Source: Archangium violaceum (GTDB lineage Bacteria > Myxococcota > Myxococcia > Myxococcales > Myxococcaceae). Taken from it: a DNA stretch of 64,000 nucleotides. The DNA is taken from assembly GCF_016887565.1 (NCBI RefSeq), contig NZ_CP069396.1, positions 8,290,001 through 8,354,000 of the forward strand, read 5' to 3'. The notes under the pieces are model-generated. The model searched no databases, was not told where the DNA came from, and saw only the letters and a list, made by a program, of their open reading frames with translations. Positions 9,973 to 35,154 of the stretch are shown in pieces. The first letter of the stretch is position 1. Every line of letters begins with the position of its first letter. The translations under genes were made by a program, and so were the position numbers.

Positions 9973-10479
9973 ATGAGCCAGTCCGCCAGCAAGAGACGAG
10001 TCCTCGTCATCGATGACTCCGAGGCCATCCACACCGACTTCCGCCGGATCCTCTGCCCGGAGCCGCGCAAGGGAAAGAACGACCTGGACCTGCTGGAGGA
10101 GGCCCTCTTCGGCCCGGCGGCTCCCACTCGCGGCGAGGGCCCCAACGAGCCGGAGTTCGAGCTGGACTCGGCCTTCCAGGGCCAGGAGGGGGTGGCCAAG
10201 GTCACCGAGTCCCTGACCGCCGGCCGCCCCTATTCGCTCATCTTCCTCGACTACCGCATGCCGCCGGGCTGGAACGGGGCCGAGACGCTCAAGCGCCTCC
10301 GGGTGGTGGCTCCCTCGCTCCCCGTGGTGCTCTGCTCGGCCTACTCCGACTACTCCTGGACGGAGCTCATGCGGGAGTTCGGCAAATCCCAGGTCTTGAG
10401 GGAGCTGCGCAAGCCCTTCAACGGCCAGGAGGTGCGGCAGATGGCGCTCGCCCTCACCGAGCCTCGAAGCCCGGGGTAG
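9973..10479 (+). CDS. Single-domain response regulator with acidic insert
   Basis: The 168-residue receiver keeps the usual residues: Asp14/Asp15 (VIDDSEA), phospho-acceptor Asp93 (IFLDYRMPPGWNG), Ser122 (LCSAYSD) and Lys147 (LRKPF). It differs from ordinary receivers in a stretch of about 45 residues after helix 1 (CPEPRK to EFELDSAF), which holds acidic motifs such as LDLLEEALFG. There is no output domain. It precedes the kinase at 10668 and has a close duplicate at 12857, so it probably takes phosphate from that kinase. The start ATG has AGGAG about 6 nt upstream. Confidence 0.9.
   Translation: MSQSASKRRVLVIDDSEAIHTDFRRILCPEPRKGKNDLDLLEEALFGPAAPTRGEGPNEPEFELDSAFQGQEGVAKVTESLTAGRPYSLIFLDYRMPPGWNGAETLKRLRVVAPSLPVVLCSAYSDYSWTELMREFGKSQVLRELRKPFNGQEVRQMALALTEPRSPG
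10001..10071 (+). repeat. 71-bp direct repeat, copy 1 (receiver duplication)
   Basis: This stretch is identical over 71 bp to 12885-12955. Both encode the same receiver segment, from LVIDDSEAIH to CPEPRK. The identity includes third codon positions, which suggests recent duplication or gene conversion. Confidence 0.9.
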
Positions 10480-10667: not shown

Positions 10668-12860
10668 ATGCAGCCATCCCCCAGTCCACGCGCACCCCTG
10701 GCCCGCTCCACGCTCATCCACATGGGCGTACGCATCGCCGTCGTCATCGCGCTGAGCACCCTGTTCAGCTACTTCCACATGTTCAGCACCCTGCGCACCG
10801 AGGCCCTCGCGCAGTTGGAGCAGCATGTCTCGGAGCGTGCGCAGCGCGAGCAGAGCATCTTCGTGCTGGCGCAGGACAATCACGTCGTCCTCAAGCAGGC
10901 CCTCGAGGAGAGGATCCGCGCCCTCTCCCCCGAGGAAGTGAGCACCCGCTTCGAGCTCCTGTTCGCGCACCTGCCCGATGGCACCGTGCGCAGCCGCCCC
11001 GAGAGCTTCGACGGCACGAAGATGGTGTGCGTCTTCGTCCCCAGGGGAGTGACCGTCGACGCGGATCTGCGCCGCCGGCTCGTCGCCTCCCATGACGTGC
11101 TCGCCCAGTACGGACCCGCCTTCCACACGCGCTTCACGGACAGCTACATCACCCTGCCCGAGGGGCCGATCGCGCTCTACTGGCCGGAGCGCTCCACCTG
11201 GTGCAGGGACGCCGCGCCCACCGACTCCGTCATCGACCAGGACTACTTCCCCATCAGCCTGCCGAAGAACAATCCGCGGAGAATGACGGCCTGGTCCGGC
11301 GTCTACGTGGACACGGTGAGCGGCCAGTCGCTGACCTCGGTCACCACGCCGTTGGACATGGACGGCCGGCATGTCGCCTCGGTCAGTCACGACGTTCCCC
11401 TCTCGGACCTGCTGGGCCGTACCATCGCGGACCACCTCCCCGGCGCCTACAACGTCATCTTCCGCGGGAACGGGCAGCTCATCGCCTACCCCGGACAGAA
11501 GGAGGGGATGTCCACATCGTCCGAGTCCACGGCGCCACGGGAGCACCTGCACCGCATCTTCGAGCGGATGAAGGAACGTCCGGACGACCCGACACCGCTG
11601 GAGCTGCCGGAGTCCGGCGAGTACATCGCCACGGCCCGGTTGCAGGGGACCGGCTGGTACTTCACCACGGTGCTCCCCGAGAGCGTGGTGTCCCGGCCCG
11701 CATTCCAAGCGGCGCGCCAGGTGCTGCTGCTCGGCCTGGTGGCCCTCGTCGTGGAGCTGGCCATCATGTACTGGGTGCTGAAGCAACAGGTCACCCGACC
11801 CCTGCTCACCTTCACCCAGGCCACCGGCCGTGTCGCCGCTGGCGACTTCCACGTCGAGCTCGACACATCCCGCGGTGACGAGCTGGGACAGCTGGCCCGC
11901 TCCTTCCGCCTCATGGCCGACGAGATCCAACGCCGCGAGGAGGCCCTGCGTCAGGCCAACGAGGGCCTGGAACAGCGCGTCGAGGAGCGCACCCGGGAGC
12001 TCAAGAACATCCACCAGCAGCTGGTGCAGACGGCCCGCCGCGCCGGCATGGCGGAGATCGCCACCAACGTGCTGCACAACGTGGGCAACGTGCTCAACAG
12101 CGTCTACACCTCGGCCCAGGTCGCCAAGGAGCGGGTGAGCGAGATGCGGCTGGAGCACGTGGGCCGGGTCGCCAACATGCTCGAGCAGAACCAGGCCAGC
12201 ATCGCCACCTACCTCGCCCAGGACGAGCGCGGCCGGCACGTCATGCCCTTCCTGTCCCGGTTGAGCCAGAATCTCCAGGACGAGCGCAATGAGGTCATCA
12301 CCCTGCTCGACGACGTGGGCCGCTACACCGAGCACATCGGCGACATCGTCAAGGTTCAACAGAACTACGCCAGGATTCCCCGGGTCCACGAGCCCGTCGT
12401 CCTCGCCGACCTGCTGGAAGACTCCCTTCGCATCAACTCGGCCGGGCTCACCCGCCACCAGGTCAAGGTGCAGCGTCACATCGTCCCCCTGCCTCCCATG
12501 CTGGCCGACAAACACAAGATCTTGATGATCCTCGTCAACCTGGTCAGCAATGCCAAATACGCCATGGATGGCGTACCACGGGACGAGCGGCTCCTGAGCG
12601 TGAGGATGGAGAATACCCGGGACGAGCACGTCCGCATCGAGATCCGTGACAACGGAATGGGTATCGCTCCGGAGATGCTCACGCGCATCTTCCAATATGG
12701 CTTCACCACCCGCCCGGATGGACATGGCTTCGGCCTGCACTCCAGCGCCCTCGCCGCCCAGGAGCTGGGCGGCTCACTGGACGTCCACAGCGAAGGGCCG
12801 GGACGTGGCGCCACCTTCACCCTGGACATCCCCTTCGTTCCCGCCCCGGAGACCCCATGA
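10668..12860 (+). CDS. Membrane sensor histidine kinase (HAMP, His470)
   Basis: The 730-residue protein has an N-terminal transmembrane helix (about residues 17-40), a periplasmic sensor domain of roughly 310 residues, a second helix (about 352-371, VLLLGLVALVVELAIMYWVL), a HAMP linker and a coiled coil. The phospho-accepting His is probably His470 in the unusual H-box NVLHNVGNVLNS. The HATPase part has NLVSNAKYAMDG, DNGMGIAPEML and GHGFGLHSSA. The last four bases (ATGA) overlap the start of the second receiver at 12857, so those two are translationally coupled. The stimulus is unknown; the periplasmic part could be a Cache-type small-ligand sensor. Confidence 0.92.
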   Translation: MQPSPSPRAPLARSTLIHMGVRIAVVIALSTLFSYFHMFSTLRTEALAQLEQHVSERAQREQSIFVLAQDNHVVLKQALEERIRALSPEEVSTRFELLFAHLPDGTVRSRPESFDGTKMVCVFVPRGVTVDADLRRRLVASHDVLAQYGPAFHTRFTDSYITLPEGPIALYWPERSTWCRDAAPTDSVIDQDYFPISLPKNNPRRMTAWSGVYVDTVSGQSLTSVTTPLDMDGRHVASVSHDVPLSDLLGRTIADHLPGAYNVIFRGNGQLIAYPGQKEGMSTSSESTAPREHLHRIFERMKERPDDPTPLELPESGEYIATARLQGTGWYFTTVLPESVVSRPAFQAARQVLLLGLVALVVELAIMYWVLKQQVTRPLLTFTQATGRVAAGDFHVELDTSRGDELGQLARSFRLMADEIQRREEALRQANEGLEQRVEERTRELKNIHQQLVQTARRAGMAEIATNVLHNVGNVLNSVYTSAQVAKERVSEMRLEHVGRVANMLEQNQASIATYLAQDERGRHVMPFLSRLSQNLQDERNEVITLLDDVGRYTEHIGDIVKVQQNYARIPRVHEPVVLADLLEDSLRINSAGLTRHQVKVQRHIVPLPPMLADKHKILMILVNLVSNAKYAMDGVPRDERLLSVRMENTRDEHVRIEIRDNGMGIAPEMLTRIFQYGFTTRPDGHGFGLHSSALAAQELGGSLDVHSEGPGRGATFTLDIPFVPAPETP

Positions 12861-13351
12861 GCAACTGCGTCAGCAAGAAGCGAATCCTCGTCATCGATGA
12901 CTCCGAGGCCATCCACACCGACTTCCGCCGGATCCTCTGCCCGGAGCCGCGCAAGAGCCGGGATGATCTGGACGAGTTGGAAGAGGCGCTCTTCGGCTCG
13001 AATCCCGCGCAGGACCATCCCTCCAGCGAGTCGGAGTTCGAGGTGGACTCGGCCTTCCAGGGTCAGGAGGGGGTCGCCAAGGTCAACGAGTCGCTGACCA
13101 GGGGCCACCCCTATTCACTCATCTTCCTCGACTACCGGATGCCGCCCGGCTGGAATGGCGCCGAGACACTCAGACGGCTGCGCCTGGTGTCTCCCTCGCT
13201 GCGCGTGGTGCTCTGCTCGGCCTACTCCGACTACTCCTGGGGAGAGCTCGTCCAGGAGTTCGGCAGGTCCCAATTGCTGACGGAGTTGCGAAAGCCTTTC
13301 AATGGCCCACAGGTCCGCCAGCTCGCGATCTCCCTCATCGGGCCGACGTGA
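12857..13351 (+). CDS. Single-domain response regulator, paralogue of 9973 gene
   Basis: The 164-residue protein matches the 9973 receiver over nearly its whole length, with the same acidic insert. Phospho-acceptor is Asp92 (FLDYRMPPGWNG). The inserts differ (SNPAQDHPSSESE here versus PAAPTRGEGPNEP), so the copies may have different partners. Its start overlaps the kinase stop by 4 nt. Its 3' end overlaps the convergent PKS gene C by 17 nt. Confidence 0.9.
   Translation: MSNCVSKKRILVIDDSEAIHTDFRRILCPEPRKSRDDLDELEEALFGSNPAQDHPSSESEFEVDSAFQGQEGVAKVNESLTRGHPYSLIFLDYRMPPGWNGAETLRRLRLVSPSLRVVLCSAYSDYSWGELVQEFGRSQLLTELRKPFNGPQVRQLAISLIGPT
12885..12955 (+). repeat. 71-bp direct repeat, copy 2
   Basis: Identical to 10001-10071; see that entry. 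Confidence 0.9.
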
Positions 13352-15689
13352 GCCAATGGCGCTGGCGTTCGAAGGGATAGGTGGGCAGCGGAACCCGGCG
13401 CCGGTGGTAGGGCGCGTCGTAGGCCTCCCAGTCCACCTTCACCCCCTTCACATACAGCATCCCCAGCGTCTCGAGGATCTGCGCCCACTCCGAGCGGCCC
13501 CGCCGGAGTGAAGTCAGCCAACCGGCCTCGGGCCTTCCCTCCGGTCTCGGGCCCAATTCCAGACACACGTCCACGCCGTGCTCGCGGAGCGCCTGCTCCG
13601 TCTCCTCGTTCAACGAGAGCAGTTGGGGCGCCGTGTAGGCCTCCGCCTGGGACGGCCCACCGGCCGCCAGTCTCAGCCCCTCCTCCAGGCCGAAGACGCC
13701 CCCATCCACCGCGGCGACCAGCTGCCCTACCCCCCGCCCCACCACCGCCCGCGGCACCACGCCCCACGCCCGCCACATCCGCGACAGGCCCCACTCCAGC
13801 GCGAAGACCGCCGCCCTCCCGTACGCCTCCTCCTTCACCCGCTCGGACTCGGGGCCACACAGCACCCACAGCAGGGGCTTCTCCAGCACGCCCTTCAGGG
13901 CCGCCCCGCACTCCTCCAGCGCGTCACGGAAGACGGGCTGCGTCTCGTACAGCACCCGGCCCATGTCCGCGTACCGCCCGCCTTCCCCACCGAAGATGAA
14001 GGCCACGCTCGGCGCGAGGCTTCCCGCCCGGCCCGGCCGCGGACCTTCCACGTCGCGCCCCGCCTCCACCGCGAGGAGCCGCTCGCGCATCTCTCGCGCG
14101 TCACTTCCCACCACCGCCAGCCGGTGCTCGAAGTGCGCCCGCCCCGCCGCGGCCGTGAAGCACACGTCTCCCAGCTCCACCCCGCCCGCCTCCAGGAAGC
14201 GCGCGTAACGGCCCGCCTGCGCACGCAGCGCCTCCTCGCCGCGCGCCGACAGCACCAGGAGGTGCTCCGGCCGATCCACCTCCCGCTTCACCTCCACCCG
14301 CGCCGGCGCCTCCCCCAACACCACGTGCGCCAGGGTGCCCGTCCGCCCGTACGAGGTCACCCCCGCGATGCGCCGGTCCTGCGTCGGCTCCCACGGCGTC
14401 AGCTCCACCGGCACCTTCACCCCCATCTCCGCCCAGTCGATATAGGGATTGGGATTCTTCAGGTGCAGGTGTGGCGGCAGCTCCCGGTGCTGCATCGCCA
14501 GCACCACCTTCATCATCCCCACCACGCCCGAGGCCGCCTCCGGGTAGCCGATGTTCGTCTTCACCGAGCCCATCCACAGCGACTCCCCACCCTTGCGCCC
14601 CTCCCTCAGCACCGCCCACATCGCCTCCGCCTCGATGGGATCTCCCATCGCCGTCCCCGTGCCGTGCGCCTCCAGGTAGCTCACCTCCGCTGGCGGCACT
14701 CCCGCGCCGCGCAATGCCTGACGGATGACCTCCTGCTGCGCCACGCCATTGGGCACCGTGAACGCGCTGCTCGGGCCATCGTGCCCCACCGCCGAGCCCC
14801 GGATGACCGCCAGGATGGTGTCTCCCTGGGCCTGGGCCTCCGACAAGCGTTTGAGCACCAGCACGCCACAGGCCTCGGCTCGGCCATACCCATCCGCCGA
14901 GGCATCGAAAGCCTTGCATCTCCCGTCCGGCGAGAGCACCCCGCTCTGGGAAAGATAGACACTCACCTCCGGCGAGAGGACGAGGTTCACGCCTCCCGCC
15001 AGGGCCATCGCGCACTCCCCGTTCCTCAGGCTCTGGCAGGCCAGGTGCACCGCCACCAGCGAGGACGAGCACGCCGTGTCCACCACCAGGCTCGGTCCCT
15101 GGAAGCCAAACACATAGGACAGACGTCCGGAGATGGCGCAGTTGGCTCGTGCCCCGAGGAAGCCAGCGTCGATGCCCTCCAGGCCTCCCGTGTCCAGCAC
15201 GCGCTGCCCGTAGTCGTTGTTCATCACCCCGATGAAGACACCCACCCGCTCGCGCCCGCCACGCTCCACCGCGTGCCCGGCCCGCTCCAATGCCTCCCAG
15301 GCCACCTCCAGCACCAGCCGCTGCTGCGGATCCATGCTCTCCGCCTCGCGCGGCGGAATGCCGAAGAAACGCGCGTCGAACCGGTCCACGTTCTTCAGGA
15401 AGCCGCCCCGTGTCGTGCGGATCTTCCCCTTCGCGCGGGGATCCGGATCGTACAGGGCCTGGGCGTCCCACCGGTCCGGTGGGAGCTCGCTGGTGGCATC
15501 GATTCCCTTCGACAACAGCTCCCAGAAGGCCTCCGGACTCTCCACTCCACCCGGCAGCCGGCACCCCATGCCGATGATCGCGATCGGCTCCCGACGGGCG
15601 GCCTCGGCCTGCTCCAGCCGAGCCTCCAGCTTGCGAATCTTCACCAACTGCTGCTGCAAGAGCTGGCGGTAATTGGGCTCCTCGGACAT
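13335..15689 (-). CDS. PKS protein C: KS (His to Tyr) plus AT remnant, no ACP
   Basis: The 784-residue protein starts at the ATG 15689 (GAGG upstream), 8 nt after gene B. The N-terminus is a docking-type coiled coil (MSEEPNYRQLLQQQLVKIRK). The ketosynthase (about 37-465) has active-site Cys207 (VDTACSSSL) and His342 (EAHGTGTAMGD), but the second His is Tyr382 (KTNIGYPEAASG; codon 14544-14546). The TNAHV motif near its end reads TLAHV. The AT-like region (about 565-760) has GRGVGQ instead of GHSxGE (Arg652, Gly653) and lacks the HAFH sub-domain. The protein ends right after the post-AT motif YPFERQRHW. There is no reductive domain, ACP or thioesterase. It is probably unable to condense. Confidence 0.9.
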   Translation of the reverse strand: MSEEPNYRQLLQQQLVKIRKLEARLEQAEAARREPIAIIGMGCRLPGGVESPEAFWELLSKGIDATSELPPDRWDAQALYDPDPRAKGKIRTTRGGFLKNVDRFDARFFGIPPREAESMDPQQRLVLEVAWEALERAGHAVERGGRERVGVFIGVMNNDYGQRVLDTGGLEGIDAGFLGARANCAISGRLSYVFGFQGPSLVVDTACSSSLVAVHLACQSLRNGECAMALAGGVNLVLSPEVSVYLSQSGVLSPDGRCKAFDASADGYGRAEACGVLVLKRLSEAQAQGDTILAVIRGSAVGHDGPSSAFTVPNGVAQQEVIRQALRGAGVPPAEVSYLEAHGTGTAMGDPIEAEAMWAVLREGRKGGESLWMGSVKTNIGYPEAASGVVGMMKVVLAMQHRELPPHLHLKNPNPYIDWAEMGVKVPVELTPWEPTQDRRIAGVTSYGRTGTLAHVVLGEAPARVEVKREVDRPEHLLVLSARGEEALRAQAGRYARFLEAGGVELGDVCFTAAAGRAHFEHRLAVVGSDAREMRERLLAVEAGRDVEGPRPGRAGSLAPSVAFIFGGEGGRYADMGRVLYETQPVFRDALEECGAALKGVLEKPLLWVLCGPESERVKEEAYGRAAVFALEWGLSRMWRAWGVVPRAVVGRGVGQLVAAVDGGVFGLEEGLRLAAGGPSQAEAYTAPQLLSLNEETEQALREHGVDVCLELGPRPEGRPEAGWLTSLRRGRSEWAQILETLGMLYVKGVKVDWEAYDAPYHRRRVPLPTYPFERQRHWLTSAR

Positions 15690-18600: not shown

Positions 18601-21600
18601 GGAAGGGATAGGTGGGCAACCGCACCCGGCGGCGCGCATACGGTGCGTCGTAGGCCGCCCAGTCCACCTCCACGCCCCGCACGTACAGCGTGCTCAGGGT
18701 CTCCAGCAGCTGCGACCACTCACCCCGGCCAGGACGCAGCGAGGCCAGTCCGCCCGCCATGCCCCGCCCCTCCGGATGGGAGCCCACCACCAGGGCCACC
18801 TCCATCCCGCGCGACCTCAGCTCCTTCGCCAGCACGTCCCATTGCCCGCCCACCGCGCCCCGGCCGCCCACCGCCAGCCTCAGTCCCTCCTCCAGGCTGA
18901 CGGCACCCCGCTCCACCGCCGCCACGTGCTCGCCCACCCCCAGCCCCACCACCTCCTCCGGCTTCACGCCCCACGCCCTCCACAGCTGGGCCAGCGACCA
19001 CTCCAACGCGAAGACCGCCGCCCTCGCGTACGCCCGCTCCTTCAACAGCGCGAGCCCGGGCCCGTACAGCACCTGCCGCAGCGGCTTCTCCAGCACCTCC
19101 TTCAGCGCCTCCTCGCATTTGCCCAGCGCCTCGCGGAAGACGGGCTGCGTCTCGTCCAGCTCCCGCCCCAGTCCCGTCCAGAGCTCCCCGCCGAACACGA
19201 ACGCCACCTTCGGCGCCGCGCCCACCGGGCTCCCCCGGATGACCCCCGCCACCTCACGCCCCGCCGCCACCGCCTCCAGCCGCTCGCGCAGCAGCGCCCC
19301 GCTCCCTCCCACCACCGCCAGCCGGTGCTCCAGGGCCGCCCGCCCCACCGCCGCCGTGAAGCACACGTCTCCCAGGGACTCGCCGCCCTCCAGGACCCGC
19401 GCGTAGTTGCCCGACAGCGCTCGCAGCGCCTCCGCGCTCCGGGCCGACAGCACCAGCACGTGCTCCGGCCGCTCCACCTCCTGCTTCTGCTCCGGCATTG
19501 GCGGTGCCTCCTCCAGCACCACGTGCGCGTTCGTCCCGCTGAAGCCAAACGAGCTCACGCCCGCGATGCGCCGCCCCTGCGTCGGCTCCCAGGCCGTCAG
19601 CTCCACCGGCACCGCCACACCCATCCCCTTCCAGTCGATGTGCGGGTTGGGCTCCTTCAAGTGCAGGTGCGCCGGCAGCTGCCGGTTCCTCATCGCCAGC
19701 ACCACCTTCGCCACCCCGGCGATTCCCGCCGCGGACTCCAGGTGGCCGATGTTCGTCTTCACCGAGCCCATCCACAGCGACTCGCCGCCCTTGCGCCCCT
19801 GCTTGAACACGGACCACATCGCCTCCGCCTCGATGGGGTCTCCCAGCGACGTGCCCGTCCCGTGCGCCTCCAGGTAGCTCACCTCCGGCGGTGACACTCC
19901 CGCCGCCCGCAGCGCCTGCTGGATGACGGCCTGCTGCGCCAGTCCGTTCGGCACGGTGAGCCCGCTGCTCGGCCCGTCCTGGTTCACCGCCGAGCCCCGG
20001 ATCAGCGCCAGCACCGTGTGCCCCTTCGCCCTCGCCTCCGACAGCCGCTCGAGCACCAGCACGCCACAGCCCTCGCCGCGCGCGAAGCCGTTGGCCGAGG
20101 CGTCGAACGTCTTGCACCGGCCATCCGTCGCCAGCATCCGCGCCTTGCAGGCCGACAGCGTCACCTCGGGCGAGAAGACCAGGTTCACTCCCGCCGCCAG
20201 CGCCATGCTGGACTCGCCACTGCGCAGGCTCTGGCAGGCCAGGTGCACCGACACCAGCGCCGACGAGCACGCCGTGTCCACCGCCATGCTCGGCCCCTGC
20301 AGGCCCAGCGTGTAGGACAGCCGTCCGGCCGCCACGTTCAGCGCCGTGCCCGAGGACAGGTACGCATCCAGCTCCGTCGGGTCTCCCCCGAGCATCAGCC
20401 GCGAGTACTCGGACGCGGAGATGCCCACGAAGACGCCCGTGCGCGAGTTGCGCAGCGCGTGCGGATCCTGCCCGGCGTTCTCCAGCGCCTCCCAGGCCAC
20501 CTCCAGCAGCAGCCGCTGCTGCGGATCCATGCTCTCCGCCTCGCGCGGGGAGATGCCGAAGAACCGTGGCTCGAAGCTGGCCACGTCCCGCAGGAAGCCT
20601 CCGCGGCGCACGTACATCTTCCCGGGCACCTCGGGGTCCGCGTCGTACCAGGCGTCCGCGTCCCACCGGTCTCCGGGAACCTCCACGGTGGCGTCCGTCC
20701 CCTCGCGCAGCAGCTCCCAGAAGGCCTCCGGCGTGTCCGCGCCACCGGGGAACCGGCAGGCCAGTCCCACGATGGCGATCGGCTCGTCCGACTGCCTCCG
20801 CCTCCGGGGCTCGGCCGTGGGGGTCCGAGGCAGCCCCGCTTCGACCAGCGACGAGAGGTGCTCCGTGAGCGACTGAAGGTTCGGGAAGTTGAAGGCCAGC
20901 GTCGCCGGCAGCTTCAGTCCCAGGGTGTCCTGCAACCGCCCCTTCAGCTCCACCGCCATGATGGAGTCCATCCCCAGCTCGGCGAAGCCTCGCTCCGGCG
21001 GCAGGGGCTGCTCGGCATCCAGACCAAGCACCCGGGCCACCCGCTCCCGCACCATGGCTTGCAGTGCCTCACGCCGGGCGGCGGGCGTGGCGGCCTCGCG
21101 CCACGGTGCCGAGGCGGGCGCCTCCGTCCCGGCCTCCGCCTTCGGCTTCGGCGCCTCGTCCGAGATGCGCTCCAGGAAGCGCCGGCCACTCCGGGCCTCG
21201 AACACGGGCTTGAAGCGCTCCCACCGGACCGCCGCCACCACCCCCTGTGGCACGCCCGCCGCGAGCAGGCGCTCCATCCACTCCACTCCGGCCTCCGGAG
21301 CGAGCGCGTCCACGCCCACGTCCTCCAGCCAGCGCCGCGTCTCGGGCGAGGCCATCCCCGCGCCGCTCCACGGTCCCCAGTTGATGACCGACGCCACCAG
21401 CCCCTGCTCGCGCCGGTGCGCCACGAGCGCGTCCAGGAAGGCATTGCCCGCGGCGTAGTGTCCCGAGCCCGTCGAGCCCCACACCGACGAGATGGACGAG
21501 AAGAGGACGAAGAAGTCCAGCGCGTCCCCGCGCGTCAGCTCGTGGAGGTTCCAGGCCCCCTCCACCTTCGGGGCCAGCACCCGGTCGAGCTTCTCGACGT

Positions 21601-25380: not shown

Positions 25381-25384
<4 letters not shown>
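15698..25384 (-). CDS. PKS protein B: KS-AT-KR-ACP-KS-AT0-DH-KR-ACP
   Basis: 3228 residues, two modules. GTG start at 25384, with GGAGG upstream and 3-nt overlap with gene A. Module 1: KS Cys197, AT Ser645 (GHSVGE) with HAFHS (malonyl-type), KR Tyr1310 and ACP Ser1474 (GMDSIMA). This KR lacks the LDD motif and has VWGS, as in A-type reductases. Module 2: KS Cys1706 with both His motifs; AT0 with GLGVGE (Gly2149 for Ser) and no HAFH part; DH with His2319 and Asp2487, although HxxxGxxxxP ends in Ala; KR with LDD (B-type) and Tyr2971; ACP Ser3141 (GMDSLMA). Predicted steps are a beta-hydroxyl, then an alkene. The C-terminus (LDALSDADLARLV) is a docking tail matching C. Confidence 0.95.
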
Positions 25385-33123
<7,739 letters not shown>

Positions 33124-33138
33124 GTGGTGCCTTCCTGT

Positions 33139-33152
33139 GACCGTCAACGGTC
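33139..33152. promoter_or_regulatory. Perfect palindrome upstream of PKS gene A
   Basis: GACCGT-CA-ACGGTC is a perfect 6-bp dyad ending 16 nt before the gene A start. It overlaps the ribosome-site side of the leader, so a protein bound here could block transcription or initiation. No cognate regulator is identified. Confidence 0.45.
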
Positions 33153-33447: not shown

Positions 33448-34620
33448 TCAGTTCGCCAGCTTTTCGATTTCTTCTGGGCTGAATCCTGCCTCTGAGAGAA
33501 TTTTGTGATTGTGCTGTCCAAGGGTGGGAGGAGGCCGCAAGGGTGTCTCTCCCATTCGCAGGGGCGTAAGGAGATGGATCACCTTCCGTCCCCGTTGAGA
33601 GTCTTCAGACTCGATGAAAAGACCACGCGCGCGGAGTTGGGGATCCTCCAACACCTCATCGCCCTCGAGGACGGGTTCGACACACAGGTCCTTGCCCGCG
33701 AAACGTTCCTTCCAATGGGACAGGGGGTGCTCGGCGAAGAGGCGTGTGAACTCAGACTTCACGCGCAGGCCGGGCTCACCGGTGTCGTATGCGTCCGCGA
33801 GGAGATCCGGGCGGCCCAAAACCTCACACACGCCCGCGAGGAATTTGGGCTCCAGCGCGCCCACGGACAGGTAGCGGTCATCGCGGGTGCGATACAGCCC
33901 GTAGCAGGCATAGCCGCCGTTGAGGGCCTCGCGGCCGCGGCGCAGGGGCTGGCCCTGCTCGCCCATCACCAGCCGCGCCGCCAGGTGCATGTGGAGGAAG
34001 GCCATGGCGCCATCCGTCATGGACACGTCCACGAGGCGGCCCTGCCCGGTGCGCTCGCGCTCGTGGAGCGCCGCGAGGATGCCCACCAGCGCGAAGAGGC
34101 TGCCGCCGCCGATGTCTCCGAGCTGCACGCCCGGGAAGGCCGGCGCGCCCTGCGCGTCCCCGCCGTAGGCGAGCACGCCCGCGCGCGCCGCGTAGTTGAT
34201 GTCGTGCCCCGCCTTCAGCCGGTCCGGCCCCGTCTGCCCGTAGCCGGAGATGGCGCAGTAGATGAGCCGGGGGTTCTGCGCGCTCAGCACGCTCCAGCCC
34301 ACGCCCAGCTTGTCCATCACGCCGGGCCGGAAGCTCTCCACCAGCACGTCGTAGCCGCGCACCAGCCGCTTGAGGGCCTCGCGTCCCTCGGGGGACTTGA
34401 GGTTGAGCACCAGCGAGCGCTTGTTGCGGTTGAGGCCGTAGTAGAGCGCGCTCTCGTCGTCGCGCATCGGCGGCATCTGGCGGATGTAGTCACCGCCGTC
34501 GGGGTCCTCGACCTTGTCCACCGTGGCGCCCAGATCGGCGAGCACCAGCGTGGCGTACGGGCCCGGCAGCAGCCGGGACAGATCCAGGACCTTGAGTCCG
34601 GACAGGGGAAGCGTGTTCAT
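33448..34620 (-). CDS. Family III CoA-transferase, 2-methylacyl-CoA racemase type
   Basis: 390 residues from the ATG at 34620 (MNTLPLSGLKVLDLSRLLPG). An upstream in-frame extension is proline-rich and improbable. The CaiB/BaiF fold is clear. Residues that serve alpha-methylacyl-CoA racemase are present: His in LKAGHDINYAARAG, Asp in VQLGDIGGGS and Glu in VGALEPKF. Racemases of this type interconvert 2-methylacyl-CoA epimers during branched-chain oxidation. The SCP2 gene just upstream on the same strand fits lipid or acyl-CoA handling, but a terminator separates the two. It lies upstream of the PKS; a role in PKS precursor supply is unproven. Confidence 0.85.
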   Translation of the reverse strand: MNTLPLSGLKVLDLSRLLPGPYATLVLADLGATVDKVEDPDGGDYIRQMPPMRDDESALYYGLNRNKRSLVLNLKSPEGREALKRLVRGYDVLVESFRPGVMDKLGVGWSVLSAQNPRLIYCAISGYGQTGPDRLKAGHDINYAARAGVLAYGGDAQGAPAFPGVQLGDIGGGSLFALVGILAALHERERTGQGRLVDVSMTDGAMAFLHMHLAARLVMGEQGQPLRRGREALNGGYACYGLYRTRDDRYLSVGALEPKFLAGVCEVLGRPDLLADAYDTGEPGLRVKSEFTRLFAEHPLSHWKERFAGKDLCVEPVLEGDEVLEDPQLRARGLFIESEDSQRGRKVIHLLTPLRMGETPLRPPPTLGQHNHKILSEAGFSPEEIEKLAN

Positions 34621-34650
34621 GTGGGGGGGTGGGGGGGCTGGGGGGATGCG

Positions 34651-34695
34651 GACAAAAAAGAAGCGGCGCGGCCCCGGAAGGGGAGCACGCGCCGC
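34651..34695 (-). terminator. Rho-independent terminator of the SCP2 gene
   Basis: On the minus strand a stem of GCGGCGCG with CGCGCCGC, enclosing CCCC-TTCC-GGGG, is followed by CTTCTTTTTT. It lies about 40 nt after the SCP2 stop and before the racemase gene. Confidence 0.75.
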
Positions 34696-34734
34696 CCGAG
34701 GAGACACGCGCCCGGAGGCGCGGCTCCGGTGATT

Positions 34735-35064
34735 CTAGCCGAGCAGCTTGGCCAGCTTCATGGCGAGGCCCATGTCCATCGGCTTGAACTTGAGCTTGCC
34801 CTGCATGGCGGCCATCTGGGCGTTGAGCTGCTTGGAGCGGATCTTCACGAAGTCGTCGTTGCTGACGGTGATGGTCATCTTCGGGGTGCCCTCGGCGCCC
34901 TTCGTCACCCAGTCAGCCGGCTTGGTACAGTCCAGCGTCCAGGTGCCCCCGTTGTCGCCGGTGATGTTGAAGTGGATGACCGAGTTGATGTCCTTGGCCA
35001 GCTGCGGGTTCTGCTGCAGCGTGGTCGGGATGTCCTTCTCGATGATCTCCTGAGCATTCGCCAT
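34735..35064 (-). CDS. SCP2 sterol/lipid-binding domain protein
   Basis: 109 residues from the ATG at 35064, with AGGAGA 6 nt upstream. It is a single SCP2 domain: an N-terminal helix (EIIEKDIPTTLQQNPQLAKDI), strands VIHFNITGDNGGTWTLD and PKMTITVSNDDFVKI, then MAAMQGKLKFKPMDMGLAMKL near the end. SCP2 proteins bind acyl chains, acyl-CoAs or sterols in a hydrophobic tunnel. There is no signal peptide, so it is cytoplasmic. Confidence 0.88.
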   Translation of the reverse strand: MANAQEIIEKDIPTTLQQNPQLAKDINSVIHFNITGDNGGTWTLDCTKPADWVTKGAEGTPKMTITVSNDDFVKIRSKQLNAQMAAMQGKLKFKPMDMGLAMKLAKLLG

Positions 35065-35154
35065 GGCACTCTCCTGTGGAGGATTGACTGCTGAATCAAC
35101 GACGGGGCGGACCGTAATGACGGTATCCGGGCAGGTCAAGCCAGCAGGCGCCCG

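Follow-up and report, generated by a model that had tools for sequence, protein, structure and literature searches.

Three polyketide synthase (PKS) genes, here called A, B and C, lie in series on the minus strand of the window, that is, of the whole stretch of 64,000 nucleotides of Archangium violaceum (contig NZ_CP069396.1) that was analysed. The last of them, gene C, is the subject of this work: it codes for 784 residues (ATG at 15689, stop codon at 13337-13335), comprising a ketosynthase (KS) with a rewritten active site and the remnant of an acyltransferase (AT), with no acyl carrier protein (ACP) to follow. With the gene starts used, the A and B frames share 4 bp and a gap of 8 bp separates B from C, which makes the three genes look like one operon. 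The coordinates of C, of its sites and of the features around it are collected in Table 1.

Table 1. Features of gene C and of the surrounding locus (DH, dehydratase; ER, enoylreductase; KR, ketoreductase; CoA, coenzyme A)
Feature	Position	Strand	Basis or remark
Gene C: docking domain, KS (Cys-His-Tyr), AT remnant, post-AT linker	13335..15689	minus	last of the A-B-C series
C, N-terminal docking coiled coil, residues 1-33	15591..15689	minus	docking role by resemblance
C, KS domain, residues 34-458	14316..15590	minus	Pfam and predicted fold
C, Cys207, nucleophile, codon TGC	15069..15071	minus	kept in 10/10 orthologues
C, His342 of HGTGT	14664..14666	minus	kept in 10/10 orthologues
C, Tyr382, codon TAC, where the KS motif usually reads NIGH	14544..14546	minus	Tyr in 10/10 orthologues
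C, gate loop with Arg449 and Leu453	14331..14345	minus	GRTGT[LV] in 10/10 orthologues
C, AT remnant, residues 557-728	13506..14021	minus	GRGVGQ replaces GHSxGE; C-terminal part of the AT gone
Gene B: KS-AT-KR-ACP / KS-AT remnant-DH-KR-ACP and C-terminal docking helix	15698..25384	minus	Pfam, motifs
B, module 2, dead truncated AT (GLGVGE)	18737..19216	minus	13 aligned residues left in the four genomes of the second genus
Gene A: KS-AT remnant (GHGVGE)-AT (GHSMGE)-DH-ER-KR-ACP	25381..33147	minus	Pfam, motifs
CoA-transferase family III gene, upstream of A	33448..34707	minus	10/10 loci
SCP2-family gene, upstream of A	34735..35139	minus	10/10 loci

The domain content of C was defined with Pfam, which matched a complete KS (residues 34-410; PF00109 with an E-value of 2.3e-99 and PF02801 with 2.7e-39, both models being covered along their full length), a KS-AT linker and the first third of an AT, the match to Acyl_transf_1 being confined to residues 564-676 or model positions 2-114 of 319. 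With the boundaries that we set, the AT segment has 172 residues, compared with 299 in the intact AT of B, and is thus about 127 residues shorter; moreover, its catalytic Ser is Val in all ten orthologues. To judge from these residues, the AT of C is dead as well as truncated, a feature that was missed in the initial annotation. Neither an ACP nor a thioesterase (TE), KR or methyltransferase (MT) was found in C by Pfam, and the protein ends after the post-AT linker, so that the end described in the initial annotation, with no ACP or release domain, was recovered. As for the fold, AlphaFold2 returned a KS with a mean predicted local distance difference test (pLDDT) score of 91.3 for residues 1-470 when the alignment held 50 KSs (alignment A2, made up of the window sequence and 49 of 76 referenced KSs), while the full-length protein, modelled with its ten near relatives only, gave a pLDDT of 40.0 and an unusable model. 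The predicted KS could be superimposed on 7UWR with a Z-score of 63.0 (1.2 A over 423 residues) and on the structure of CalA3 with a Z-score of 54.4 (5.5 A). Residues 1-470 are thus confidently predicted to adopt the fold of a type I modular cis-AT KS.

In KS chemistry a Cys serves as the nucleophile, and this residue (Cys207) is retained in C, together with His342 and Lys377 (SVKTN). The replacement of the second catalytic His by Tyr382, which had been proposed for the window, was confirmed from the codons, and the same Tyr was found in all ten orthologues. In order to place this change among the remaining positions, a set of KSs picked by similarity was used, to which the ten orthologous regions contributed only their A, B and C proteins; matches with E > 1e-50 or leaving query residues 20-400 uncovered were dropped, and the removal of duplicates reduced the set from 84 to 80. 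The 70 KSs other than C include near-copies and are therefore not independent observations. At least 85% conservation was found among these 70 at 157 sites, 126 of which are fully kept in C, while 17 are changed in all ten C proteins, and 12 of these 17 are invariant within C. Ten of the 17 cluster in segments 302-310, 382-390 and 445-453, which, by their place in the alignment, are catalytic or gate segments. The residues that were replaced are among the most constant of the set, namely His at Tyr382, Asn at Leu/Val453 and Gly at Ala273 (each in 70/70), Phe at Tyr447 (69/70) and Asn at Gly302 (68/70), and the nucleophilic Cys itself is missing from one of the 70. In addition, Arg449 is fixed in C at a position which is variable elsewhere and where none of the 70 has Arg. 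Active-site positions were assigned by motif alignment to FabF numbering and by shifting residue numbers by a constant 10 relative to CalA3; on this basis, residues 447, 449 and 453 of C correspond to Phe398, Phe400 and Asn404 of FabF, and segment 445-453 aligns with gate loop 1. Loop 1 of FabF (399-402) gates the site through Phe400, Asn404 touches Asp265 of loop 2, and the carbonyl of the substrate is contacted by both His residues (PMC7138838).

Of the 96 genomes of the family that were searched, 10 have a full-length counterpart of C, namely 6/6 genomes of the genus of the window (Archangium) and 4/4 of a second genus, the nine other proteins being 69-96% identical to the window C (alignment A1). 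All ten occupy the same position in the locus, end after the AT remnant and lack an ACP, the architecture that the initial annotation had suggested looking for in related genomes; Cys207, His342, Lys377, Tyr382 and Arg449 are each present in 10/10. No full-module orthologue, which would have spoken against the annotated end of C, appeared among these ten Tyr-bearing proteins. Among 195 genomes of the phylum, the pattern K-x-N-[ILV]-G-Tyr-x-E was matched in 11. Ten of the matches are C, once per genome; the eleventh (G167) was rejected as a KS, as it sits in an open stretch of 31 residues. Of the 96 genomes of the family, 60 have matches to the same pattern with His, 422 in all. As Tyr382 occurs in the same gene in ten genomes of two genera, neither chance nor a sequencing error accounts for it. 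A further genome, G080, which is 86% complete and fragmented, contains A- and B-like pieces, and C was not found in it, which is no evidence of absence.

Selection was estimated as the ratio of nonsynonymous to synonymous substitution rates (dN/dS), pooled over seven close pairs that share genomes and bootstrapped over codons only. The KS of C gave 0.150 (0.112-0.200) and its sister KS in B 0.142 (0.098-0.193), so that the KS of C is under purifying selection, to about the same degree as its sister. Of the parts of C that were measured, the docking domain showed the strongest constraint (0.024), while the AT remnant gave 0.254 (0.176-0.353), compared with 0.136 for the intact AT of B. Four pairs at greater distance gave 0.49-0.54 for the AT remnant and 0.17-0.23 for the KS of C; over such distances, working domains of the same line reached 0.57 (KR1 of B), 0.57 (DH of B) and 0.71 (DH of A).

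The origin of C was approached with a quick tree of 70 of the 80 KSs, supported by the Shimodaira-Hasegawa-like approximate likelihood ratio test (SH-aLRT) only. C formed one clade (100% SH-aLRT), sister to the KSs of B module 2, with which the G080 fragment grouped, and had a stem of 0.30 compared with 0.11. In a third genus (G057 and G058), a protein here called C' has the same type of docking sequence (NYRQ..QQQLVKIRKLEARLE), is 63-66% identical to C over the matched part and follows a DH-KR-ACP module, the same position as that of C; it keeps the His (NLGHLE), and its AT has GHSVGE. The short contigs of these assemblies have exact ends in common with the long ones, over 95 bp in G057 and 127 bp in G058, and the path of the third genus may be read from them as module-2 KS, AT, DH-KR-ACP, C'-type KS, AT, MT and ACP. 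A KS-AT-MT-ACP module inside B of this genus was also considered and dropped, as the exact shared ends fit a collapsed KS-AT repeat. Such collapsed repeats stand at the ends of L057 (G057:C26) and L058 (G058:C41), where a reading at face value gives a false module order. The KS of C' grouped with the module-2 KS of its own genus and not with C (99% SH-aLRT), so that C' is a positional counterpart of C rather than a demonstrated orthologue; either gene conversion between near-identical copies (85-87% DNA identity) or a separate duplication could account for this grouping. Since the C' module in G057 and G058 appears to read KS-AT-MT-ACP, the ancestor of C was likely a full extension module of the kind pictured by C'.

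Several known types of KS can be compared with C, which coincides with none of them. An elongating KS has the triad Cys-His-His, from which C departs by Tyr382 in all ten orthologues, and in the loading KSs known as KSQ the Cys is replaced by Gln, while Cys207 is present in all ten. The closest analogue in working appears to be CalA3 of calcimycin biosynthesis, a protein with no ACP and a dead AT, whose KS releases the chain via amidation or hydrolysis, and in which amidation was lost and hydrolysis rose 3.4- to 4.9-fold on mutation of C197, H332, H372, K367 or L437, the rise being 4.46-fold in the case of C197A (PMC10006239). CalA3 (PDB 7WVZ, 8I4Y, 8I4Z) shares with C the terminal position, the N-terminal docking domain, the absence of an ACP, an AT with no catalytic Ser and the retention of the Cys and of the first His; the constant offset also places L437, T438 and L439 of CalA3 on Tyr447, Gly448 and Arg449 of C, which suggests that its gate loop is altered too. 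Nevertheless, CalA3 keeps the second His as an acceptor-positioning residue and contains dead DH and KR domains, while in C this His is Tyr in 10/10. Over the same stretch, the score of C was far higher with CurL (592.6 bits) than with CalA3 (367.1 bits). A second analogue is TAS1 of tenuazonic acid biosynthesis, where a terminal Cys-His-Asn KS performs the release cyclization (PMC4640141). TAS1 resembles C in the terminal position of its KS, after which there is no AT or ACP, and in the non-His third residue of its triad, and differs in that this residue is Asn instead of Tyr and in that the enzyme is fungal, is fused to a nonribosomal peptide synthetase and cyclizes a chain containing an amino acid.

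Furthermore, the KS homologues NonJ/NonK and CerJ (C-O) and BomK (C-N) join a chain to oxygen or nitrogen, and they are likened to C by their description in PMC10006239 and not by sequence. The trans-AT KS0 domains, in turn, carry out transacylation with no condensation (PMC8302727, PMC10952193), and C would resemble them in having lost condensation and in taking a chain from an upstream ACP. In Art14KS4, OzmH-KS8 and BaeKS3 the first His is substituted, and Art11KS1 lacks about 130 N-terminal residues (PMC8302727); KS0 domains are followed by an ACP that receives the chain, whereas C keeps His342 in 10/10, loses the second His and gives no PP-binding match. In short, C would resemble CalA3 and TAS1 in its way of working while lacking a defining feature of each. 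The authors of the CalA3 study describe noncanonical KS reactions as limited in number (PMC10006239), and no Cys-His-Tyr KS was recognised in literature searches of limited depth, which is weak evidence of novelty.

Taken together, these results incline us slightly towards the view that C is a KS turned into a docked chain-release acyltransferase, which passes the finished chain to water or to a small nucleophile. With Tyr for the second His, a dead AT and no ACP downstream, C would be unable to condense, and the decarboxylative formation of C-C bonds would have been lost, in keeping with established KS chemistry. The terminal helices suggest that C docks onto the C-terminus of B, where Cys207 would accept the acyl chain from the last ACP of B, the presumed donor. 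The chain would then be discharged onto an acceptor activated by His342, either water or a small nucleophile such as CoA or a hydroxyl or amine carried by the chain itself or by a different molecule, while Tyr382 and Arg449 may shape or position this acceptor. The initial annotation had contemplated a KS reused for release or transfer, such as transesterification; this use is favoured here and has two published precedents, CalA3 and TAS1, and transesterification becomes just one option among several.

As for the substrate, nine of the ten C proteins have VMNN at what we take to be the dimer-interface loop. A Met at the second position of the motif of this loop has been reported to favour alpha,beta-unsaturated chains (PMC11321453). 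In C, this Met suggests a fit with the final DH-KR module of B, and the chain taken over is most likely unsaturated. The formation of a dihydropyrone by C from the 5-hydroxy-2-enoyl chain predicted from B was considered and set aside, since the LDD motif of the last KR of B suggests an E double bond, according to the rule that links this motif of KRs to that geometry.

A more far-reaching proposal, which is offered tentatively, is that C is the first example of a class of Cys-His-Tyr KSs, in which the triad and the gate (Tyr382, Arg449 and Leu/Val453) may have been rewritten to bond the chain to a specific non-carbon acceptor in place of a thioesterase, having evolved by the stripping of AT, MT and ACP from an extension module. 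In this context, the working-type sister KSs in B, the His-bearing C' of the third genus, probably part of a full module, and the truncated C with its fixed, rewritten site in ten species form a natural series. On this series, the question of how an enzyme that forms C-C bonds becomes a release enzyme can be tested by comparing matched proteins at a small number of residues. Proteins like C may also be mistaken for broken modules.

Some of the data weigh against a release function. Losing the second His could weaken specific transfer, because the H372A mutant of CalA3 lost amidation and CalA3 itself keeps both His residues; likewise, the hydrolysis seen with CalA3 is no proof of Cys-based catalysis, because C197A still raised it. 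Two working KSs of the line (dN/dS of 0.084 and 0.095) are under somewhat tighter constraint than the KS of C, and selection cannot cleanly separate a catalytic KS from an idle AT remnant, given the overlap of their intervals and the similar or higher values of working domains; purifying selection on C also fits a structural or gatekeeping role. The support for release by C comes from sequence, and a distant TE, or an ACP acting in trans, may exist elsewhere in the genomes.

The acceptor may simply be water, C being then a plain KS-derived hydrolase that gives a free acid, perhaps activated afterwards by the neighbouring CoA-transferase. This form of release, which falls within the favoured view, is possible and, taken by itself, rather unlikely. 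The five active-site mutants of CalA3, the equivalent His included, shifted from amidation to acid (PMC10006239), and the CoA-transferase gene is conserved in all ten loci; nevertheless, as C197A is one of these mutants, hydrolysis need not use the KS nucleophile, the fixation of Arg449 and Tyr382 suggests that the acceptor is positioned, and the role of the CoA-transferase may instead concern the starter unit. It is also unlikely that C is an inert, conserved subunit docked on B, which would stabilise, cap or gate the last ACP while release is spontaneous or due to an unlinked thioesterase. The strong constraint on the docking domain and the retention of the AT remnant in all ten proteins would agree with such a role, as would the absence of a thioesterase, since release may come from elsewhere: no thioesterase, alpha/beta hydrolase or discrete ACP was found by Pfam among 39 open reading frames of the window, nine of which matched no family, the other small frames and the rest of the genome not having been checked. 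A mere cap, however, would have no need of Cys207, His342 and Lys377 in all ten proteins, or of catalytic and gate sites changed to specific residues and then fixed.

A transfer-only KS0, handing the chain to a discrete ACP or to another carrier in trans, would need just what C retains, Cys207 and His342, and has precedent in the transacylating KS0 domains (PMC8302727, PMC10952193). This is improbable, as there is no ACP in C nor any discrete one among the frames scanned, and as the three KS0s with a substitution described in PMC8302727 have the first His replaced and not the second. Finally, the dead-remnant branch of the initial annotation, with C as what is left of a former extension module, accounts for its sister position to module-type KSs and for the loss of the AT and ACP functions. 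It has become very improbable: the KS and its sister KS have matching dN/dS values, the docking domain is also under purifying selection, and in all ten genomes the frame is open and the Tyr and the other altered residues are fixed.

Regarding the surrounding locus, the CoA-transferase, SCP2, response regulator, histidine kinase, TatA, A, B and C genes are present in all ten loci, while an AMP-ligase gene occurs in the six loci of the first genus and was not found in the examined stretches of the other four. Downstream of C, where six of the ten loci were compared, no G033 gene past C matched G034, G002 or G003. The CoA-transferase and SCP2 genes (33448-35139) are conserved beside a PKS with no visible loading module, and they could possibly supply the starter; the assignment of the CoA-transferase to a named equivalog was rejected, as every score lay below the cut-off.

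Module 2 of B is an AT-less module within a cis-AT line: its AT is dead and truncated in six genomes and reduced to 13 aligned residues in four, and it is absent from the B-like fragment of G080. In the window, the KS2, DH, KR and ACP of this module match Pfam normally, and the module would need to be loaded by another AT. Gene A contains a tandem AT, the first of which (30841-31479) has GHGVGE in 10/10, while in G057 and G058 both tandem ATs match Pfam strongly over most of the model. In all three dead ATs of the line of the window, the catalytic Ser is replaced by Val. Lastly, two response-regulator-like genes (9973-10479 and 12857-13351) flank a HAMP sensor kinase (10668-12860) and face the PKS operon; they share their best match place in G003, G005 and G006 and thus look like paralogues.

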